NCBI RefSeq assembly: GCF_028767125.1
Contig: NZ_JAKCWP010000001.1
Span: 62,001 to 126,000 of the forward strand
Source of the DNA: Chelativorans sp. YIM 93263
Lineage (GTDB): Bacteria > Pseudomonadota > Alphaproteobacteria > Rhizobiales > Rhizobiaceae
Length of the DNA stretch: 64,000 nucleotides
Direction of reading: 5' to 3'
Shown here: positions 2,897 to 64,000 of the stretch, one piece after another
Layout: each line of letters begins with the position of its first letter
How positions within the stretch are numbered: the stretch's first letter is position 1
Translations under genes and position numbers: made by a program
The notes under the pieces: generated by a model
What the model saw: only the letters and a program-made list of their open reading frames with translations
What the model was told of the DNA's origin: nothing
The model's database searches: none

Positions 2897-3448
2897 TCAC
2901 GCGACGGCGGGTGAGTTGGTCACCTGGACGGCGATTGCGTCAGGGCCGAAATCATTTTCCCCCTCGATCCCGAGGATATCCGCCAATCGGCTGCGGGCCC
3001 GGCTGACACGACTCTTGATCGTGCCGACGGCGCAGCCGCAGATCTCGGCGGCTTCTTCATAGGAAAAGCCGGATGCGCCAATGAGGATGATGGCTTCGCG
3101 CTGGTCCTCGGGGAGCAGCGCCAACGCCTTTCGAAAGTCGGTCAGGTCGGACGATCCGTCCTGACTCGGATGGACGGAGAGGCGGGCCGTGATGGCCCCG
3201 TCGCTGTCTTCCACCTCTCGCTTGCGTTTGCGCATTTGCGAATAGAACTCGTTGCGGAGGATCGTGAACAGCCACGCTTTCAGATTCGTGCCTTGCTGAA
3301 AACTGTCCTGTTTGTCCCATGCTTTGACCAGCGTTTCCTGAACGAGATCATCCGCACGATCGGTATTCTTCGCCAAGGATACGGCGAACGCACGTAGCGT
3401 CGGCACCGCAGCCAGAAGGCCGTCGCGGAAACTCTGTGCGCTGGACAT
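2897..3448 (-). CDS. ecfG: General stress response ECF sigma factor EcfG
   Basis: A 183-residue ECF sigma factor with region 2 (about 10-80, including DDLVQETLVKAW) and region 4 (about 110-165, SYEEAAEICGCAVGTIKSRV), and no extra domains. Its place directly after nepR and divergent from phyR identifies it as EcfG (sigma-EcfG/RpoE2), the sigma factor of the alphaproteobacterial general stress response. NepR holds it inactive until phosphorylated PhyR displaces NepR. The ATG at 3448 lies 2 bp past the nepR stop. A TTG two codons earlier would overlap that stop and is less likely. Downstream in the window are many promoters matching its consensus. Confidence 0.95.
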   Translation of the reverse strand: MSSAQSFRDGLLAAVPTLRAFAVSLAKNTDRADDLVQETLVKAWDKQDSFQQGTNLKAWLFTILRNEFYSQMRKRKREVEDSDGAITARLSVHPSQDGSSDLTDFRKALALLPEDQREAIILIGASGFSYEEAAEICGCAVGTIKSRVSRARSRLADILGIEGENDFGPDAIAVQVTNSPAVA

Positions 3449-3450
3449 AC

Positions 3451-3705
3451 TCAATCCTCATTTGCATCCGGACGGGAGGGCTCCTGGTGTTCGAGCGCCT
3501 CTAGTAACTGGCTGAAGCGATCGGGAACCTCGTCGGAAACCAACTCGTCGTAATACTGTTTGAGCTTTCGGGCGATCTCGGAGTTCGTCCCCATCGGCTC
3601 TGCAGGGTGGGAGCCTCTCGACCCTTCCCTTTTCTCCGGATTGCGATGTGCCATTTGTTCTTTGTTACCGGCTTCGTCCTCCAAATCGCTGAGCACCTTT
3701 GTCAT
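3451..3705 (-). CDS. nepR: Anti-sigma factor NepR
   Basis: An 84-residue protein whose C-terminal half carries the NepR core (IARKLKQYYDELVSDEVPDR, then FSQLLEALE), the two helices that bind EcfG or PhyR. The N-terminal part is polar and variable, as usual. The start at 3705 is the first ATG in frame. The frame also opens at a TTG at 3735, and a later ATG at 3654 would give about 67 residues, so the start is uncertain. It is co-transcribed with ecfG from an EcfG promoter, which gives positive autoregulation with negative feedback. Confidence 0.93.
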   Translation of the reverse strand: MTKVLSDLEDEAGNKEQMAHRNPEKREGSRGSHPAEPMGTNSEIARKLKQYYDELVSDEVPDRFSQLLEALEHQEPSRPDANED

Positions 3706-3745
3706 TGTCACATCTTTGCCTGCTTTATTTCGCAATTCGAACCTT

Positions 3746-3771
3746 AACGGTCGCGCCCAGAAATTTGTTCC
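3746..3771 (-). promoter_or_regulatory. EcfG promoter of nepR-ecfG
   Basis: Minus strand GGAAC (3771-3767), 17 bp, CGTT (3749-3746): exact consensus, 41 bp before the nepR ATG. It lies back-to-back with the phyR promoter, the two -35 elements being 9 bp apart. Confidence 0.88.
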
Positions 3772-3780
3772 CGATCATGA

Positions 3781-3805
3781 GGAACTTTTTTCCGGCAGTG
3801 GCGTT
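3781..3805 (+). promoter_or_regulatory. EcfG promoter of phyR
   Basis: GGAAC (3781-3785), 16 bp, CGTT (3802-3805): exact consensus, with the ATG of phyR 62 bp downstream of the -10. Confidence 0.88.
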
Positions 3806-3867
3806 ACGGTGCCATTGTGGCCTAATTTTCGGATAACATCCATCAAGTCGAGGGAGATGAACTCAGC

Positions 3868-4662
3868 ATGAGCTTGTCGGCAAGAATCGCTCCGCATTTG
3901 CCTTACCTGCGCCGGTTTTCACGGGCGGTTTCCGGATCCCAGACGAGCGGCGATGCTCTGGTCGCCGCAACGCTTGAAGCGCTCATCGCTGATACGTCCG
4001 TCTTTCCGAAAGCCTCCAACGATCGTATCGCGCTTTTCAAGCTTTTTGCGCAACTGTTTGGAACGTTCGAAATCCGCATTCCCGAAGCGCAGCCGACTGC
4101 TGCCTGGGAACAAAGGGCGATTGCAAACCTCTCGTCTCTCGCGCCGCAGCCCAGGCAAGCATTTCTCCTGATTGCGGTGGAGGGCTTCGAAACGGACGAG
4201 GCCGCTGAGATCCTGGACGTGGACGAACAGCGGCTAAACGCTCTCCTCAAGGAGGCCAGCGACGAGATTTCCCGTCAGGTGGCCACCGACATAATGATCA
4301 TCGAGGATGAGCCGCTGATCGCAATGGATATCGAGGAACTGGTCGAAAGCCTCGGTCATCGGGTGGTCGGCACGGCCCGAACTCACGACGAGGCGATGAG
4401 CCTCTTCAAGCAGACCAGTCCTAGCATGGTTCTTGCCGACATTCAGCTTGCCGACGGCAGTTCCGGAATTGACGCCGTGAACGACATCCTCGCCTCTACC
4501 CCGGTTCCGGTCATATTCATTACCGCGTTCCCCGAGCGGCTTTTGACCGGCGAACGGCCCGAGCCGGCTTTCCTCGTGACGAAGCCGTTTAACCCGGACA
4601 TGGTCAAGGCTTTGATCAGTCAGGCTCTTTTCTTCGATCAACAGGCCCGAGCCGCGGCCTGA
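3868..4662 (+). CDS. phyR: Anti-anti-sigma response regulator PhyR
   Basis: A 264-residue protein with the unusual PhyR order. A sigma-like output domain (about 1-135, resembling ECF regions 2 and 4) is followed by a C-terminal receiver (about 140-258). Receiver residues are visible: acidic pocket EDE at 146-148, phospho-acceptor Asp191 ([11 protein letters not shown]), Thr in FITAFP and Lys in TKPF. When phosphorylated, the sigma-like domain binds NepR and frees EcfG. A good AGGGAG site precedes the ATG. No HWE/HisKA2 kinase gene lies nearby, so its activating kinase must be elsewhere. Confidence 0.96.
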
Positions 4663-60587: not shown

Positions 60588-60612
60588 GGAACAAGGCGCA
60601 CATCGATCCGTT
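60588..60612 (+). promoter_or_regulatory. EcfG promoter of ndh
   Basis: GGAAC (60588-60592), 16 bp, CGTT (60609-60612): exact consensus, 20 bp from the divergent promoter and 98 bp before the ndh start. Confidence 0.85.
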
Positions 60613-60710: not shown

Positions 60711-62090
60711 TTGAGTATCAGGGAAGACATGCCGCCGGCACAGCCGGTCGCTTCTCGAGCCTCGCGCATTGTCATCGTCGGGGCCGGCTTCGCCGGACTT
60801 CAGGCGGCCAAGGAACTGGGACGTGCGGGCGTGCCCGTCGTGTTGCTCGACCGGCAGAATCACCATCTCTTCCAGCCGCTCCTATACCAGGTTGCCACTG
60901 CCGCGCTTTCGGCCACGGACATTGCCGAGCCGATCCGCAAGGTCCTGCGCCGCCAGGAGAGCGTTCAGGTCCTGCTCGGCGAAGTGAAGGATATCGATAC
61001 CGGCTGCAAGACGCTGAAGCTGTCAGATGGCTCGACCGTCGATTACGATTACCTGGTGCTGGCGACCGGTGCGACGCACAGCTACTTCGGGCGCGACGAA
61101 TGGGGCCGCCGGGCGCCTGGTCTCAAGACACTGGCCGATGCCAGGCAAGTCCGTGCGAAGGCCCTGCTAGCGTTCGAGCGTGCCGAGCGGACGATCGACC
61201 CCGATGAGCAGGCGCGGCTGATGACAATAGCCGTGGTCGGCGGCGGCCCCACGGGCGTAGAGCTTGCCGGCTCGCTGGCCGAACTCAGCCGCTTCACCCT
61301 GACGCGCGATTTCAGGAGTGTCCGGCCGGAGAGCGCCAGAATCATGCTGATCGAGGCCGGACCGCGCATTCTGTCGTCCTTCTCGGAAAAGATCTCCGAC
61401 TATGCTCACCGACGGCTCGAGAAGCTAGGCGTGGAAGTCTACACCGAGATGCCGGTGGAGGATATTCGCGAAGAGGAGATCACCTTCGGTGGAAAGACCG
61501 CTCCAGTCGGCCTCGTCCTTTGGGCGGCGGGTGTCGCGGCATCCCCGCTTGGCGCGATGATCGGTGCGGAGACGGACCGGGCGGGCCGCGTGCTCGTGGA
61601 TGAAACGCTCAAGGCGCGTGGAGCGGACAACGTCTTCGTGCTCGGAGACGTGGCCAATTTCACCGGTAAGGACGGCAAACCGCTCCCCGGCCTGGCGCAG
61701 GTGGCCAAGCAGCAGGGAAGTCATCTTGGCCGCAGCCTCGCAAGACACCTGAAGGACGGCAAACCGCTGGAGCCGTTCGAATATCACAGCCGGGGCAATA
61801 CGGCGATCATCGGCCGCCATGCCGGCGCTTTCGAGCGTGGAAACTTTGCCCTTACCGGCTGGTTCGCGTGGCTCGCCTGGGCGCTCATTCACGTCTACCT
61901 GCTGGTGGGCTTTCATCACCGACTCATGGTTTCGATGCAGTGGCTGTGGCGCTATGTTACTTTCGAGCGAGGCGCACGCGTGATGACCGACGAGGCCTTC
62001 GACCTGCACAGGGGAAGAAAACCCCCAGCCAAGCAAAGGGTGGCGGGCGAAACCATGACCGATCACAAGCCAGACAAATCCAGCGGGTGA
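60711..62090 (+). CDS. ndh: Type II NADH dehydrogenase (NDH-2)
   Basis: 459 residues with two dinucleotide loops (VGAGFAGLQAAKELG for FAD and VGGGPTGVELAG for NADH), the quinone-site region and a C-terminal membrane-binding part (LIHVYLLVGFHH, MQWLWRYVTF). Oxidises NADH to quinone without proton pumping. The TTG at 60711 sits 6 bp after GGAGG. An ATG at 60729 is an alternative. Its EcfG promoter means it is a stress-induced bypass of complex I. Confidence 0.9.
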   Translation: MSIREDMPPAQPVASRASRIVIVGAGFAGLQAAKELGRAGVPVVLLDRQNHHLFQPLLYQVATAALSATDIAEPIRKVLRRQESVQVLLGEVKDIDTGCKTLKLSDGSTVDYDYLVLATGATHSYFGRDEWGRRAPGLKTLADARQVRAKALLAFERAERTIDPDEQARLMTIAVVGGGPTGVELAGSLAELSRFTLTRDFRSVRPESARIMLIEAGPRILSSFSEKISDYAHRRLEKLGVEVYTEMPVEDIREEEITFGGKTAPVGLVLWAAGVAASPLGAMIGAETDRAGRVLVDETLKARGADNVFVLGDVANFTGKDGKPLPGLAQVAKQQGSHLGRSLARHLKDGKPLEPFEYHSRGNTAIIGRHAGAFERGNFALTGWFAWLAWALIHVYLLVGFHHRLMVSMQWLWRYVTFERGARVMTDEAFDLHRGRKPPAKQRVAGETMTDHKPDKSSG

Positions 62091-62113: not shown

Positions 62114-62138
62114 GGAACAATGCTGTTCGCCGCTCGTT
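62114..62138 (+). promoter_or_regulatory. EcfG promoter of the Mn-catalase gene
   Basis: GGAAC (62114-62118), 16 bp, CGTT (62135-62138): exact consensus, 30 bp before the ATG. Confidence 0.88.
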
Positions 62139-62168
62139 CGGGCGCCATGTTCCCAATGGAGGCGTTTG

Positions 62169-62993
62169 ATGTTCTACACTGATAACAAACTGCAGTATCC
62201 CGTCCGCGTCGAACAGCCCAATCCGGTCTTCGCCCGCGCTCTTCAGCAGGCGATCGGCGGTGTGGAGGGGGAAATCCGCGTTGCGATGCAATACATGTTC
62301 CAGGCATGGGGCGCGCGAGGAGATCCGAAATACCGCGACCTCCTCCTCAATACGGCGACGGAGGAGCTGGGTCACATCGAGATGCTCGCGACTGCCGTGG
62401 CACTTAACCTGGAGAATGCGCCCCTTTCGATGCAGGAAGAAGCGTCCGCCGACCCGGTGGGCGGCGCCGTTCTCAACGGCATGAACATGCGTCATATCCT
62501 GTCGACCGGCCTTGCTGCGCTTCCCGAGAATGCCAATGGCGTACCCTTTAACGCCTCCCACGTCTATGCCTCGGGAAATCTCGGCGCGGACATGTTCGCC
62601 AATGTCACGGCCGAAGCGACCGGACGCACCCTGGCGGTTCGCCTCTACAATATGACCGATGATCCTGGCATGAAGGACATGCTGTCTTTTCTGATCGCCC
62701 GCGACACCATGCACCAGAACCAGTGGATGGCCGCGATCGAAGAGATGGGAGGACTCGAGGAGGTCATGCCCATTCCCAACAGCTTCCCGCAGGACCAGGA
62801 GAACCAGGATTTCAATTATTCCTACCTCGGGTTCCAGCAGGACGGCAGTGAGCCGGTGCAGGGGCGCTGGAGCGAGGGCGAGTCGATCGACGGGAACGGT
62901 CAGTTCTCCTCGCAGCCGATGGAACCGGTTGGCGAAGAGCCCCAGCTCGGCCGCGCGCGGCCGAATTCCGGCGCTCAGGCAGAGCAGCTATAG
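62169..62993 (+). CDS. Manganese (non-haem) catalase
   Basis: 274 residues of ferritin-like helices with the di-manganese ligand pattern: Glu near 34-36, Glu66 and His69 (TEELGHIEM), Glu149 (VTAEATGRT) and His182 (DTMHQNQW), matching positions in Lactobacillus catalase. Splits hydrogen peroxide to water and oxygen without haem. The C-terminal Pro/Gln-rich tail is disordered. The ATG at 62169 follows GGAGG by 8 bp. Confidence 0.93.
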   Translation: MFYTDNKLQYPVRVEQPNPVFARALQQAIGGVEGEIRVAMQYMFQAWGARGDPKYRDLLLNTATEELGHIEMLATAVALNLENAPLSMQEEASADPVGGAVLNGMNMRHILSTGLAALPENANGVPFNASHVYASGNLGADMFANVTAEATGRTLAVRLYNMTDDPGMKDMLSFLIARDTMHQNQWMAAIEEMGGLEEVMPIPNSFPQDQENQDFNYSYLGFQQDGSEPVQGRWSEGESIDGNGQFSSQPMEPVGEEPQLGRARPNSGAQAEQL

Positions 62994-63006
62994 GAGCCGA
63001 CAAACA

Positions 63007-63405
63007 ATGGATCGACGACTATTTCTCACCGGAATCGGTGGCGGACTGGCCGGCACGCTGACCGGCGTGCGGGCCGAAGAAAAAAACGCACCGGCGGGCA
63101 AGGCATTGCTTTCGACCTATGTGACCAATGTCGGAGACCTCCTGGGAACGGACCCCGTGCCGGTAGGCCGCAACGCGCCTCTCGCGCTGACGCGCGTGCA
63201 CGACCGCGACTATGACAAAACCACAATTGCCGTGGCGACCTTGAAAGGCCGTGTCATAGGCTATCTGCCGACGAACCAATCCCGCATTATGGCGCCGCTT
63301 CTGGATGCGGGAATGCAGGCGAGCGCGCGGGTCGCCGAGGTGAAAAATTATCCGCGCCCCGCTGTTCGCATCGAAATCGCCCTCTCGCCAGCATCGAGTG
63401 CCTGA
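63007..63405 (+). CDS. HIRAN-domain protein with twin-arginine-like signal
   Basis: 132 residues. The start MDRRLFLTGIGGGLAG looks like a Tat signal (RR-x-F-L). The rest matches a HIRAN domain: a beta-barrel with VHDRDYDKTTIAVATLKGRVIGYLP. HIRAN domains bind DNA ends in eukaryotic helicases such as HLTF. An exported stand-alone version is of unknown role. It lies 13 bp after the Mn-catalase stop and shares its stress promoter by inference. Confidence 0.75.
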   Translation: MDRRLFLTGIGGGLAGTLTGVRAEEKNAPAGKALLSTYVTNVGDLLGTDPVPVGRNAPLALTRVHDRDYDKTTIAVATLKGRVIGYLPTNQSRIMAPLLDAGMQASARVAEVKNYPRPAVRIEIALSPASSA

Positions 63406-63468
63406 AGAGGGTAGTCGACCGCGCGGCCGCCGTTCCGCCGCGCGGTCCTGCCTCCCGGATTGGAGTTC

Positions 63469-64000
63469 ATGACGCGATCGCAATCCGCCATCCCCGCCAC
63501 CCGCGAGTTCGACAGCACGTTGGCGTTGCTGAGAGAAGGGTATCTCTTCGTCGGTCGGCGGTGCGAGGACCTTCACAACGATCTTTTCAGGACGCGGCTG
63601 ATGCTTTCCCCGGTGGTCTGTATGCGCGGACCCTCAGCGGCCGGACAATTCTACCGGGAAGGCCGTTTCACGCGGCAGGGCGCGCTTCCGCCCACAACGC
63701 TGACACTCCTGCAGGACCGGGGCAGCGTGCAAACACTCGACGGAGACGAACACCGCCACCGCAAGCAGATGTTCATGGACCTCATGGACAGCGGCAGCCT
63801 GGATCGCGCAGTCACCATCTTTCGAGACGAGTGGAACACGGCGGCCGAATCGTGGGTGGGAAGCAGAATTGTCCTGCATGATGAGGTGCGCGCGATCCTG
63901 ACGCGCACAGCCTTGCGCTGGTGCGGCATTCCGCTCGACGAGGTACAGCCGGAGCAGCGCACCGCGGAGTTCTCGGCAATGATCGAGGGTGCCGGCAGCA
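63469..64000 (+). CDS. CYP152-family fatty acid peroxygenase (partial)
   Basis: The first 177 codons, cut by the window end. LALLREGYLFVGRRC, FTRQGALPPTTLTLLQDRG, VQTLDGDEHRHRKQMF and the helix pattern match the N-terminus of CYP152 P450s, which hydroxylate fatty acids with hydrogen peroxide instead of oxygen and reductase. The haem-binding Cys lies beyond the window. GGAG precedes the ATG. It follows the Mn-catalase and HIRAN genes. Confidence 0.85.
   Translation, partial: MTRSQSAIPATREFDSTLALLREGYLFVGRRCEDLHNDLFRTRLMLSPVVCMRGPSAAGQFYREGRFTRQGALPPTTLTLLQDRGSVQTLDGDEHRHRKQMFMDLMDSGSLDRAVTIFRDEWNTAAESWVGSRIVLHDEVRAILTRTALRWCGIPLDEVQPEQRTAEFSAMIEGAGS

Follow-up and report, generated by a model that had tools for sequence, protein, structure and literature searches.

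A manganese catalase and a twin-arginine-leader HIRAN protein beside a CYP152-like P450 at an EcfG-linked locus of Chelativorans sp. YIM 93263

We analyzed a stretch of 64,000 nucleotides (the window) from Chelativorans sp. YIM 93263 (contig NZ_JAKCWP010000001.1). At its end lie, in order, ndh, an EcfG-type promoter motif, a manganese catalase (Mn-catalase) gene, a gene for a HIRAN protein, a hairpin, and a P450 gene (Table 1). The P450 gene runs out of the window; in the genome it is full-length, encodes 417 amino acids, and reaches position 64722 in window numbering (L002 5469-6722). The genes for PhyR, NepR, and EcfG are found in the same window (2897-4662) and carry divergent exact EcfG motifs. 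The original prediction, made from the letters of the sequence, had described a peroxide module headed by an exact EcfG promoter and composed of an Mn-catalase, a Tat-leader HIRAN protein, and a CYP152 enzyme. The exact motif is indeed present ahead of the catalase, and profiles and alignments bore out all three gene identities. The GC-rich inverted repeat between the HIRAN and P450 genes had not been part of that description.

Table 1. Features of the locus and its regulatory context, in window coordinates
Feature	Position	Strand	Remarks
EcfG-type ECF sigma factor	2897..3454	-	regulator, context
NepR anti-sigma factor	3451..3735	-	context
PhyR response regulator	3868..4662	+	context
EcfG motif 5' of ndh	60588..60612	+	
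ndh, NDH-2-like pyridine nucleotide-disulfide oxidoreductase	60711..62090	+	TTG start assumed
EcfG-type promoter motif GGAAC-N16-CGTT	62114..62138	+	55 nt 5' of the catalase ATG
Mn-catalase, 274 aa, ATG start, no leader	62169..62993	+	PF05067 and NF052557 profiles, 1jku alignment
HIRAN protein, 132 aa, ATG start, twin-arginine leader	63007..63405	+	PF08797 profile, alignment, model, fold match
GC-rich inverted repeat, 11-bp stem, 9-nt loop	63417..63447	+	terminator-like, without T run
CYP152-like P450, 5' part, ATG at 63469	63469..64000	+	runs beyond the window end

The catalase matched PF05067 with an E value of 2.2e-88 (296.4 bits against a cutoff of 27). Its score against the NF052557 equivalog profile, 344.1 bits, was just below the cutoff of 350, and from its sequence we file the enzyme as a member of the Mn-catalase family rather than as an NF052557 equivalog. 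Three glutamates and two histidines (E35, E66, H69, E149, and H182), which we take to be the dimanganese ligands, align to those of 1jku, and the enzyme is predicted to destroy H2O2. The same genome contains further Mn-catalase genes that are 49-50% identical (G000:C23:29165-29968 and G000:C22:78599-79389, the latter matched in two pieces).

The gene immediately downstream encodes a protein that scored 38.6 bits against PF08797 (cutoff, 24.7). Its structural model (mean pLDDT, 79.6; residues 1 to 27 below 50) matched the HIRAN structures of lp_0118 (3k2y; Z = 15.0), human HLTF (4xzg; Z = 12.9), and yeast Rad5 (Z = 10.1), which also carries a HIRAN domain, while the next-best fold after HIRAN structures reached a Z score of 5.9. 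Judged by this model, the window protein adopts the HIRAN fold. Its leader opens with MDRRLFL, and an uncharged stretch comes next. Inspection by eye and with a regular expression found a twin arginine and a hydrophobic stretch at the N terminus of the window protein and of 12 of the 13 other HIRANs aligned, giving a twin arginine in 13 of 14 rows and Lys-Arg in the remaining one (L111); L085, which is alike L084, was left out of this alignment. We infer that the Tat system most likely takes the protein, already folded, across the inner membrane.

Tyr/Phe-Asp is retained in all 14 rows, but the segment aligned to the Arg-Tyr-Tyr of HLTF is not conserved among them. We assume that both sets of residues serve DNA-end binding, and such binding by the window protein is possible rather than confidently predicted. 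Sequences of these HIRANs change much faster than those of the catalases (median end-branch length, 0.59 versus 0.08). The close pair L060/L063 (dN = 0.016, dS = 0.089) points to purifying selection on the HIRAN gene; L054/L055 (dN = 0.020, dS = 0.038) gives no clear sign of it. A read-through model of catalase and HIRAN, tried as a route to docking, gave no usable interface (mean pLDDT, 65.5; pTM, 0.44).

To what extent is the catalase under stress control? Matches to GGAAC/CGTT with spacers of N15-18 numbered seven in the window against 2.24 expected, and none of 100 shuffles reached seven. Across the genome, GGAAC-N16/17-CGTT occurred 95 times, compared with 72 times for the pattern read backwards. 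Since the exact motif is not strongly overrepresented genome-wide, a single match is weak evidence, and position and conservation must carry the weight. GGAAC-N16/17-CGTT upstream of the window catalase makes the gene a candidate member of the EcfG regulon. Of the 63 alphaproteobacterial catalases drawn from the best 80 of 141 loci, 34 had a relaxed form, GGAAC-N16/17-NGTT, in the 200 nt ahead of the gene, against a background of 1.6% per 200 nt, 1 of 63 for the reversed pattern, and 10 of 63 on the opposite strand; the relaxed form also preceded 11 of the 14 HIRAN-bearing catalases among those best 80. The relaxed -10 element (NGTT) was set after the sequences had been seen, and the 63 loci are related to one another, so a binomial P value overstates the case. 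These counts exclude 16 archaeal or Bacillaceae loci (L113 and L115-L129) and one locus whose catalase extends past the contig end (L114). As the conserved form of the promoter, strict CGTT was rejected, being found within 300 nt upstream of only 1 of the 63 relatives.

GGAAC-N16-CGTT is a published EcfG motif (PMC3892343), and the relaxed form agrees with the GGAAC-N17-20-GTT motif of Sphingomonas melonis (PMC6599016). In Rhizobium etli, a putative Mn-catalase is described as RpoE4-dependent (PMC3188799); placing a catalase of this type under stress control is thus no novelty. Together with the relaxed motif, this precedent supports the control that the original prediction had proposed. A search of the available literature for EcfG together with manganese catalase returned no match.

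We then asked how widely the HIRAN gene accompanies the catalase. A contig scan with the catalases of the window and of Nitratireductor aestuarii as queries confirmed 141 loci, of which the best 80 were kept; the initial matches served to build a HIRAN profile, which was applied to these 80. In 14 of the best 80 of 141 loci, which come from several alphaproteobacterial families of the Hyphomicrobiales and Rhodobacterales, a HIRAN gene directly follows the catalase; the pairing is conserved, and the 14 include near-duplicates (L084/L085, L054/L055, and L060/L063) as well as N. aestuarii itself (L053). With the window counted, there are 15 units; in 14 of them HIRAN starts 0 to 14 nt past the catalase stop, and in Methylobrevis (L052) the distance is 113 nt. 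Conversely, 65 of the 79 readable catalases among the best 80 of 141 loci have no HIRAN, and the protein is therefore dispensable in general. Mn-catalase and Tat-leader HIRAN thus appear, from gene order, to form a recurrent but rare bicistron. No paper on this pairing was found in the literature searched, as judged on titles and the beginnings of abstracts, and a search for HIRAN domain-containing proteins with catalase likewise returned no match.

Presence of the HIRAN gene requires seven changes on the catalase tree (six to seven in bootstraps), compared with a mean of 14.0 when shuffled, a distribution that suggests several gains, losses, or transfers. Within the genus, Nitratireductor aestuarii (NZ_BMIF01000003; L053) has a HIRAN gene at once after its catalase in other surroundings, and a third genome (G015) contains pieces of a catalase gene together with a HIRAN frame just 58 amino acids long. 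On the catalase tree, the window enzyme clusters with Rhizobium albus and Pelagibacterium, away from N. aestuarii, which would fit separate acquisition within the genus. Coevolution of HIRAN with catalase was considered and set aside: the HIRAN tree (14 rows, L085 out) had low signal, and clade tests gave p-AU values of 0.284 and 0.38.

Some HIRAN-less Mn-catalases have, no more than about 2.5 kb away, a gene whose product carries a twin-arginine leader, as at L064 (7469), L077 (9739), and L086 (8953), and similar leaders occur near HIRAN-less catalases at L068, L079, L081, L087, L090, and L093. The neighbors in L064, L077, and L086 belong to DUF4142 (Pfam) and fit an envelope-directed stress set. 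Leader-bearing genes of this sort are possibly a second kind of exported neighbor.

A search of the class with the HIRAN profile matched 10 of 385 genomes, and only the window exceeded 60 bits. All members used to build this profile were linked to catalases, so it leans toward HIRANs of that kind. The nine other matches were either HIRANs that lack a twin-arginine leader or proteins that have such a leader but are unrelated, and no catalase was found within 1.5 kb of any of them. Applied to 30 other catalase-bearing genomes, the profile matched only in N. aestuarii (G013) and G015. PF08797 itself was detected in 11 of 297 genomes of the order sample, including that of the window; the other ten fall outside the catalase-genome set and had no catalase match within 1.5 kb. 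Among the other HIRAN open reading frames there (L024-L033, L131-L137), none of the 10 inspected by eye has a twin-arginine leader; those of L025, L132, and L136 have an N-terminal hydrophobic stretch resembling a membrane anchor. Across the order, class, and plasmid searches, we found no full-length Tat-leader HIRAN distant from a catalase or catalase remnant. The plasmid search, run with the HIRAN protein alone, hit 1 of 72,556 records, a Paracoccus liaowanqingii plasmid (NZ_CP040763.1) on which an intact Tat-leader HIRAN follows an 82-codon N-terminal remnant of a catalase (L155 338-935; 42% identity to the first 72 catalase residues), with genes for Ku and DNA ligase D downstream. A broken catalase beside an intact HIRAN supports an original pairing of the two. 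Because the enzyme is a remnant there, the case also suggests that HIRAN can outlive its catalase and may act without it.

The same plasmid bears on an alternative in which HIRAN is an independent stress protein: it would share the catalase promoter by chance and bind nucleic-acid ends or another ligand in the envelope, with no action on the catalase. Persistence after catalase decay, next to Ku and ligase D, would be expected of such a protein, as would the DNA-end-binder fold with its retained Tyr/Phe-Asp and the many catalases that do without a HIRAN. That HIRAN recurs at close spacing beside a single kind of enzyme argues the other way, as does the segment aligned to HLTF Arg-Tyr-Tyr, which is not conserved, and we consider this alternative less likely. 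We prefer to see HIRAN as a probable envelope-side partner of the catalase.

The P450 appears to have a different history. Its best solved relative is 3awm, a fatty acid alpha-hydroxylase (E = 1.6e-108), and a full-length alignment places it with CYP152 by similarity, with the Gln, Arg-Pro, and heme-Cys positions in common, whose roles we take to be those of the family. With 473.4 bits against the NF053744 CypC equivalog (cutoff, 600), it is filed as a CYP152-like protein, not a CypC equivalog, and is predicted to be a fatty-acid peroxygenase. Among 15 other genomes of the genus, five encode CYP152-like P450s (at least 45% identity). Four of these five have the order ndh-P450-DUF4142-DUF892 with neither catalase nor HIRAN; their ndh genes are 75-78% identical to that of the window, and two of the four blocks include a SnoaL-like gene. 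In these blocks, EcfG-type motifs precede ndh (4 of 4), the P450 (3 of 4), and DUF4142 (4 of 4). In one block, the P450 gene (G012:C3:136336-137567) is split over two frames. The P450 motif begins 32-33 nt 5' of the start codon in three blocks (L149-L151), a spacing that would give a leaderless or nearly leaderless message. The window retains the motifs ahead of ndh and DUF4142, and no EcfG-type motif was found before its P450.

More broadly, the 200 nt upstream of 17 CYP152 loci contained the relaxed motif in seven cases (background, 3.2%) and the strict motif in five (0.8%), three being same-genus loci. From these upstream sequences, CYP152 peroxygenases seem to have been recruited repeatedly to the general stress response of alphaproteobacteria, a combination for which the literature searched returned no match. 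To our knowledge, the physiological role of these enzymes is unclear.

Between HIRAN and P450, on the same strand, there are 63 nt. None of 200 base shuffles gave a stem as strong as the one in this gap, while dinucleotide shuffles of a larger stretch folded nearly as well (z = -1.44; 18 of 200). Stems of at least 9 bp follow HIRAN in 10 of 15 units, counted after HIRAN genes only. A sigma-70 scan yielded 0 promoter-like sites, and a scan for terminators with T runs yielded 2 terminator-like sites, where shuffles gave 2.6; neither site was at the end of HIRAN. The catalase-HIRAN transcript probably ends at the hairpin as a rule, perhaps with some read-through into the P450, and a single transcript shared with the P450 appears doubtful.

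These observations bear on the view that catalase, HIRAN, and P450 are cotranscribed from the EcfG promoter as one peroxide operon that balances removal of peroxide with its use. The short same-strand gap and the missing P450 motif in the window agree with it, as do the 4 of the best 80 of 141 loci at which CYP152 and catalase genes are no more than 8 kb apart: three Paracoccus loci, at 2-4 kb, and Methylobrevis pamukkalensis (L052 6564-10812), whose P450-catalase-HIRAN-ndh cluster has the window's four gene kinds in another order. Co-occurrence agrees in part. In the order sample, six of the seven other CYP152 genomes also encode an Mn-catalase, compared with 21 of 296 overall (Fisher P = 4e-7, uncorrected for kinship). 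In the class sample of 289 genomes, three others have CYP152, three others have Mn-catalase, and one has both, so that only one of three CYP152 genomes follows suit and the association is not clearly general. Physical linkage tells against the operon. The P450 is apart from the catalase in all five other CYP152 genomes of the genus, and in all six order genomes with both genes the two lie on separate contigs or more than 1 Mb apart; at the locus itself, the hairpin separates HIRAN from the P450. A shared niche or regulon explains the co-occurrence as well as a direct link does, and we regard the single operon as unlikely. Of the module in the original prediction, then, the catalase-HIRAN part is conserved in other genomes, and the linkage of the P450 to the pair is not kept in the genus. 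The prediction had named a separate P450 promoter and an unconserved neighborhood as grounds against itself; both are found in part, with an own motif in three of the four pair-less blocks set against the Methylobrevis and Paracoccus loci and the order-level co-occurrence.

On balance, we lean toward two EcfG-linked units lying side by side. The first would be a compact cassette of EcfG-type promoter, Mn-catalase, Tat-leader HIRAN, and hairpin; the second would be a general-stress block of the genus, made up of ndh, CYP152, DUF4142, DUF892, and a SnoaL-like gene. Insertion of the pair between ndh and the P450 in this lineage is the simplest reading of the gene orders; the P450 there has no recognizable EcfG motif of its own. 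The reverse history, an ancestral seven-gene order from which other species of the genus lost the pair, would suit the four gene kinds kept together in Methylobrevis and is improbable given four relatives that share the pair-less block, three with a P450 motif at the junction, and a window catalase that groups with R. albus and Pelagibacterium instead of N. aestuarii.

Under the two-unit arrangement, PhyR would release EcfG, which would drive catalase and HIRAN from one message. Their translation is probably coupled, given the short gap and the TAGGAG sequence in which the stop codon overlaps the ribosome site. The P450 may be coupled to the catalase through the shared stress regulon rather than through a single operon. 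HIRAN domains are known as intracellular readers of DNA ends. A family of them that recurs with Mn-catalase and is apparently exported would place this fold in the envelope and would offer a handle on its role there. One bolder idea, to which we attach little probability, is that HIRAN is an export escort: translated in a coupled fashion with the leaderless catalase, it would bind the folded, metal-loaded enzyme, which would then pass through Tat as its hitchhiker. If true, the Mn-catalase would be a stress-induced periplasmic enzyme, and the HIRAN domain would work beyond the cytoplasm, as an export adaptor that binds protein.

Each component resembles a known system and departs from it. Like the Mn-catalase of Lactobacillus plantarum (1jku), the window enzyme has the fold family, the length, and the aligned dimanganese ligand residues, whereas Arg147 and Glu178 of 1jku, which we assume to be functional, are replaced in the alignment by Ala and Asp; the HIRAN gene directly downstream further sets it apart from the known family. 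The P450 aligns over its full length with P450 SP-alpha (3awm) and P450 BS-beta (1izo), including the Gln, Arg-Pro, and heme-Cys positions, but unlike them sits in an EcfG-linked ndh block. The HIRAN protein shares sequence profile, fold, and the conserved Tyr/Phe-Asp with HLTF and lp_0118, yet it is stand-alone, has a Tat-like leader, and is tied to a catalase. The HIRANs that have been studied are parts of repair proteins and bind DNA ends, and for bacteria the domain is discussed in HipA-type toxin-antitoxin kinases (PMC8262856). The closest regulatory likeness is the RpoE4 regulon of R. etli, in which an Mn-catalase is likewise under an EcfG-type sigma factor, and the passages available from that report name neither a HIRAN partner nor a P450 (PMC3188799), the two neighbors that distinguish the locus described here.
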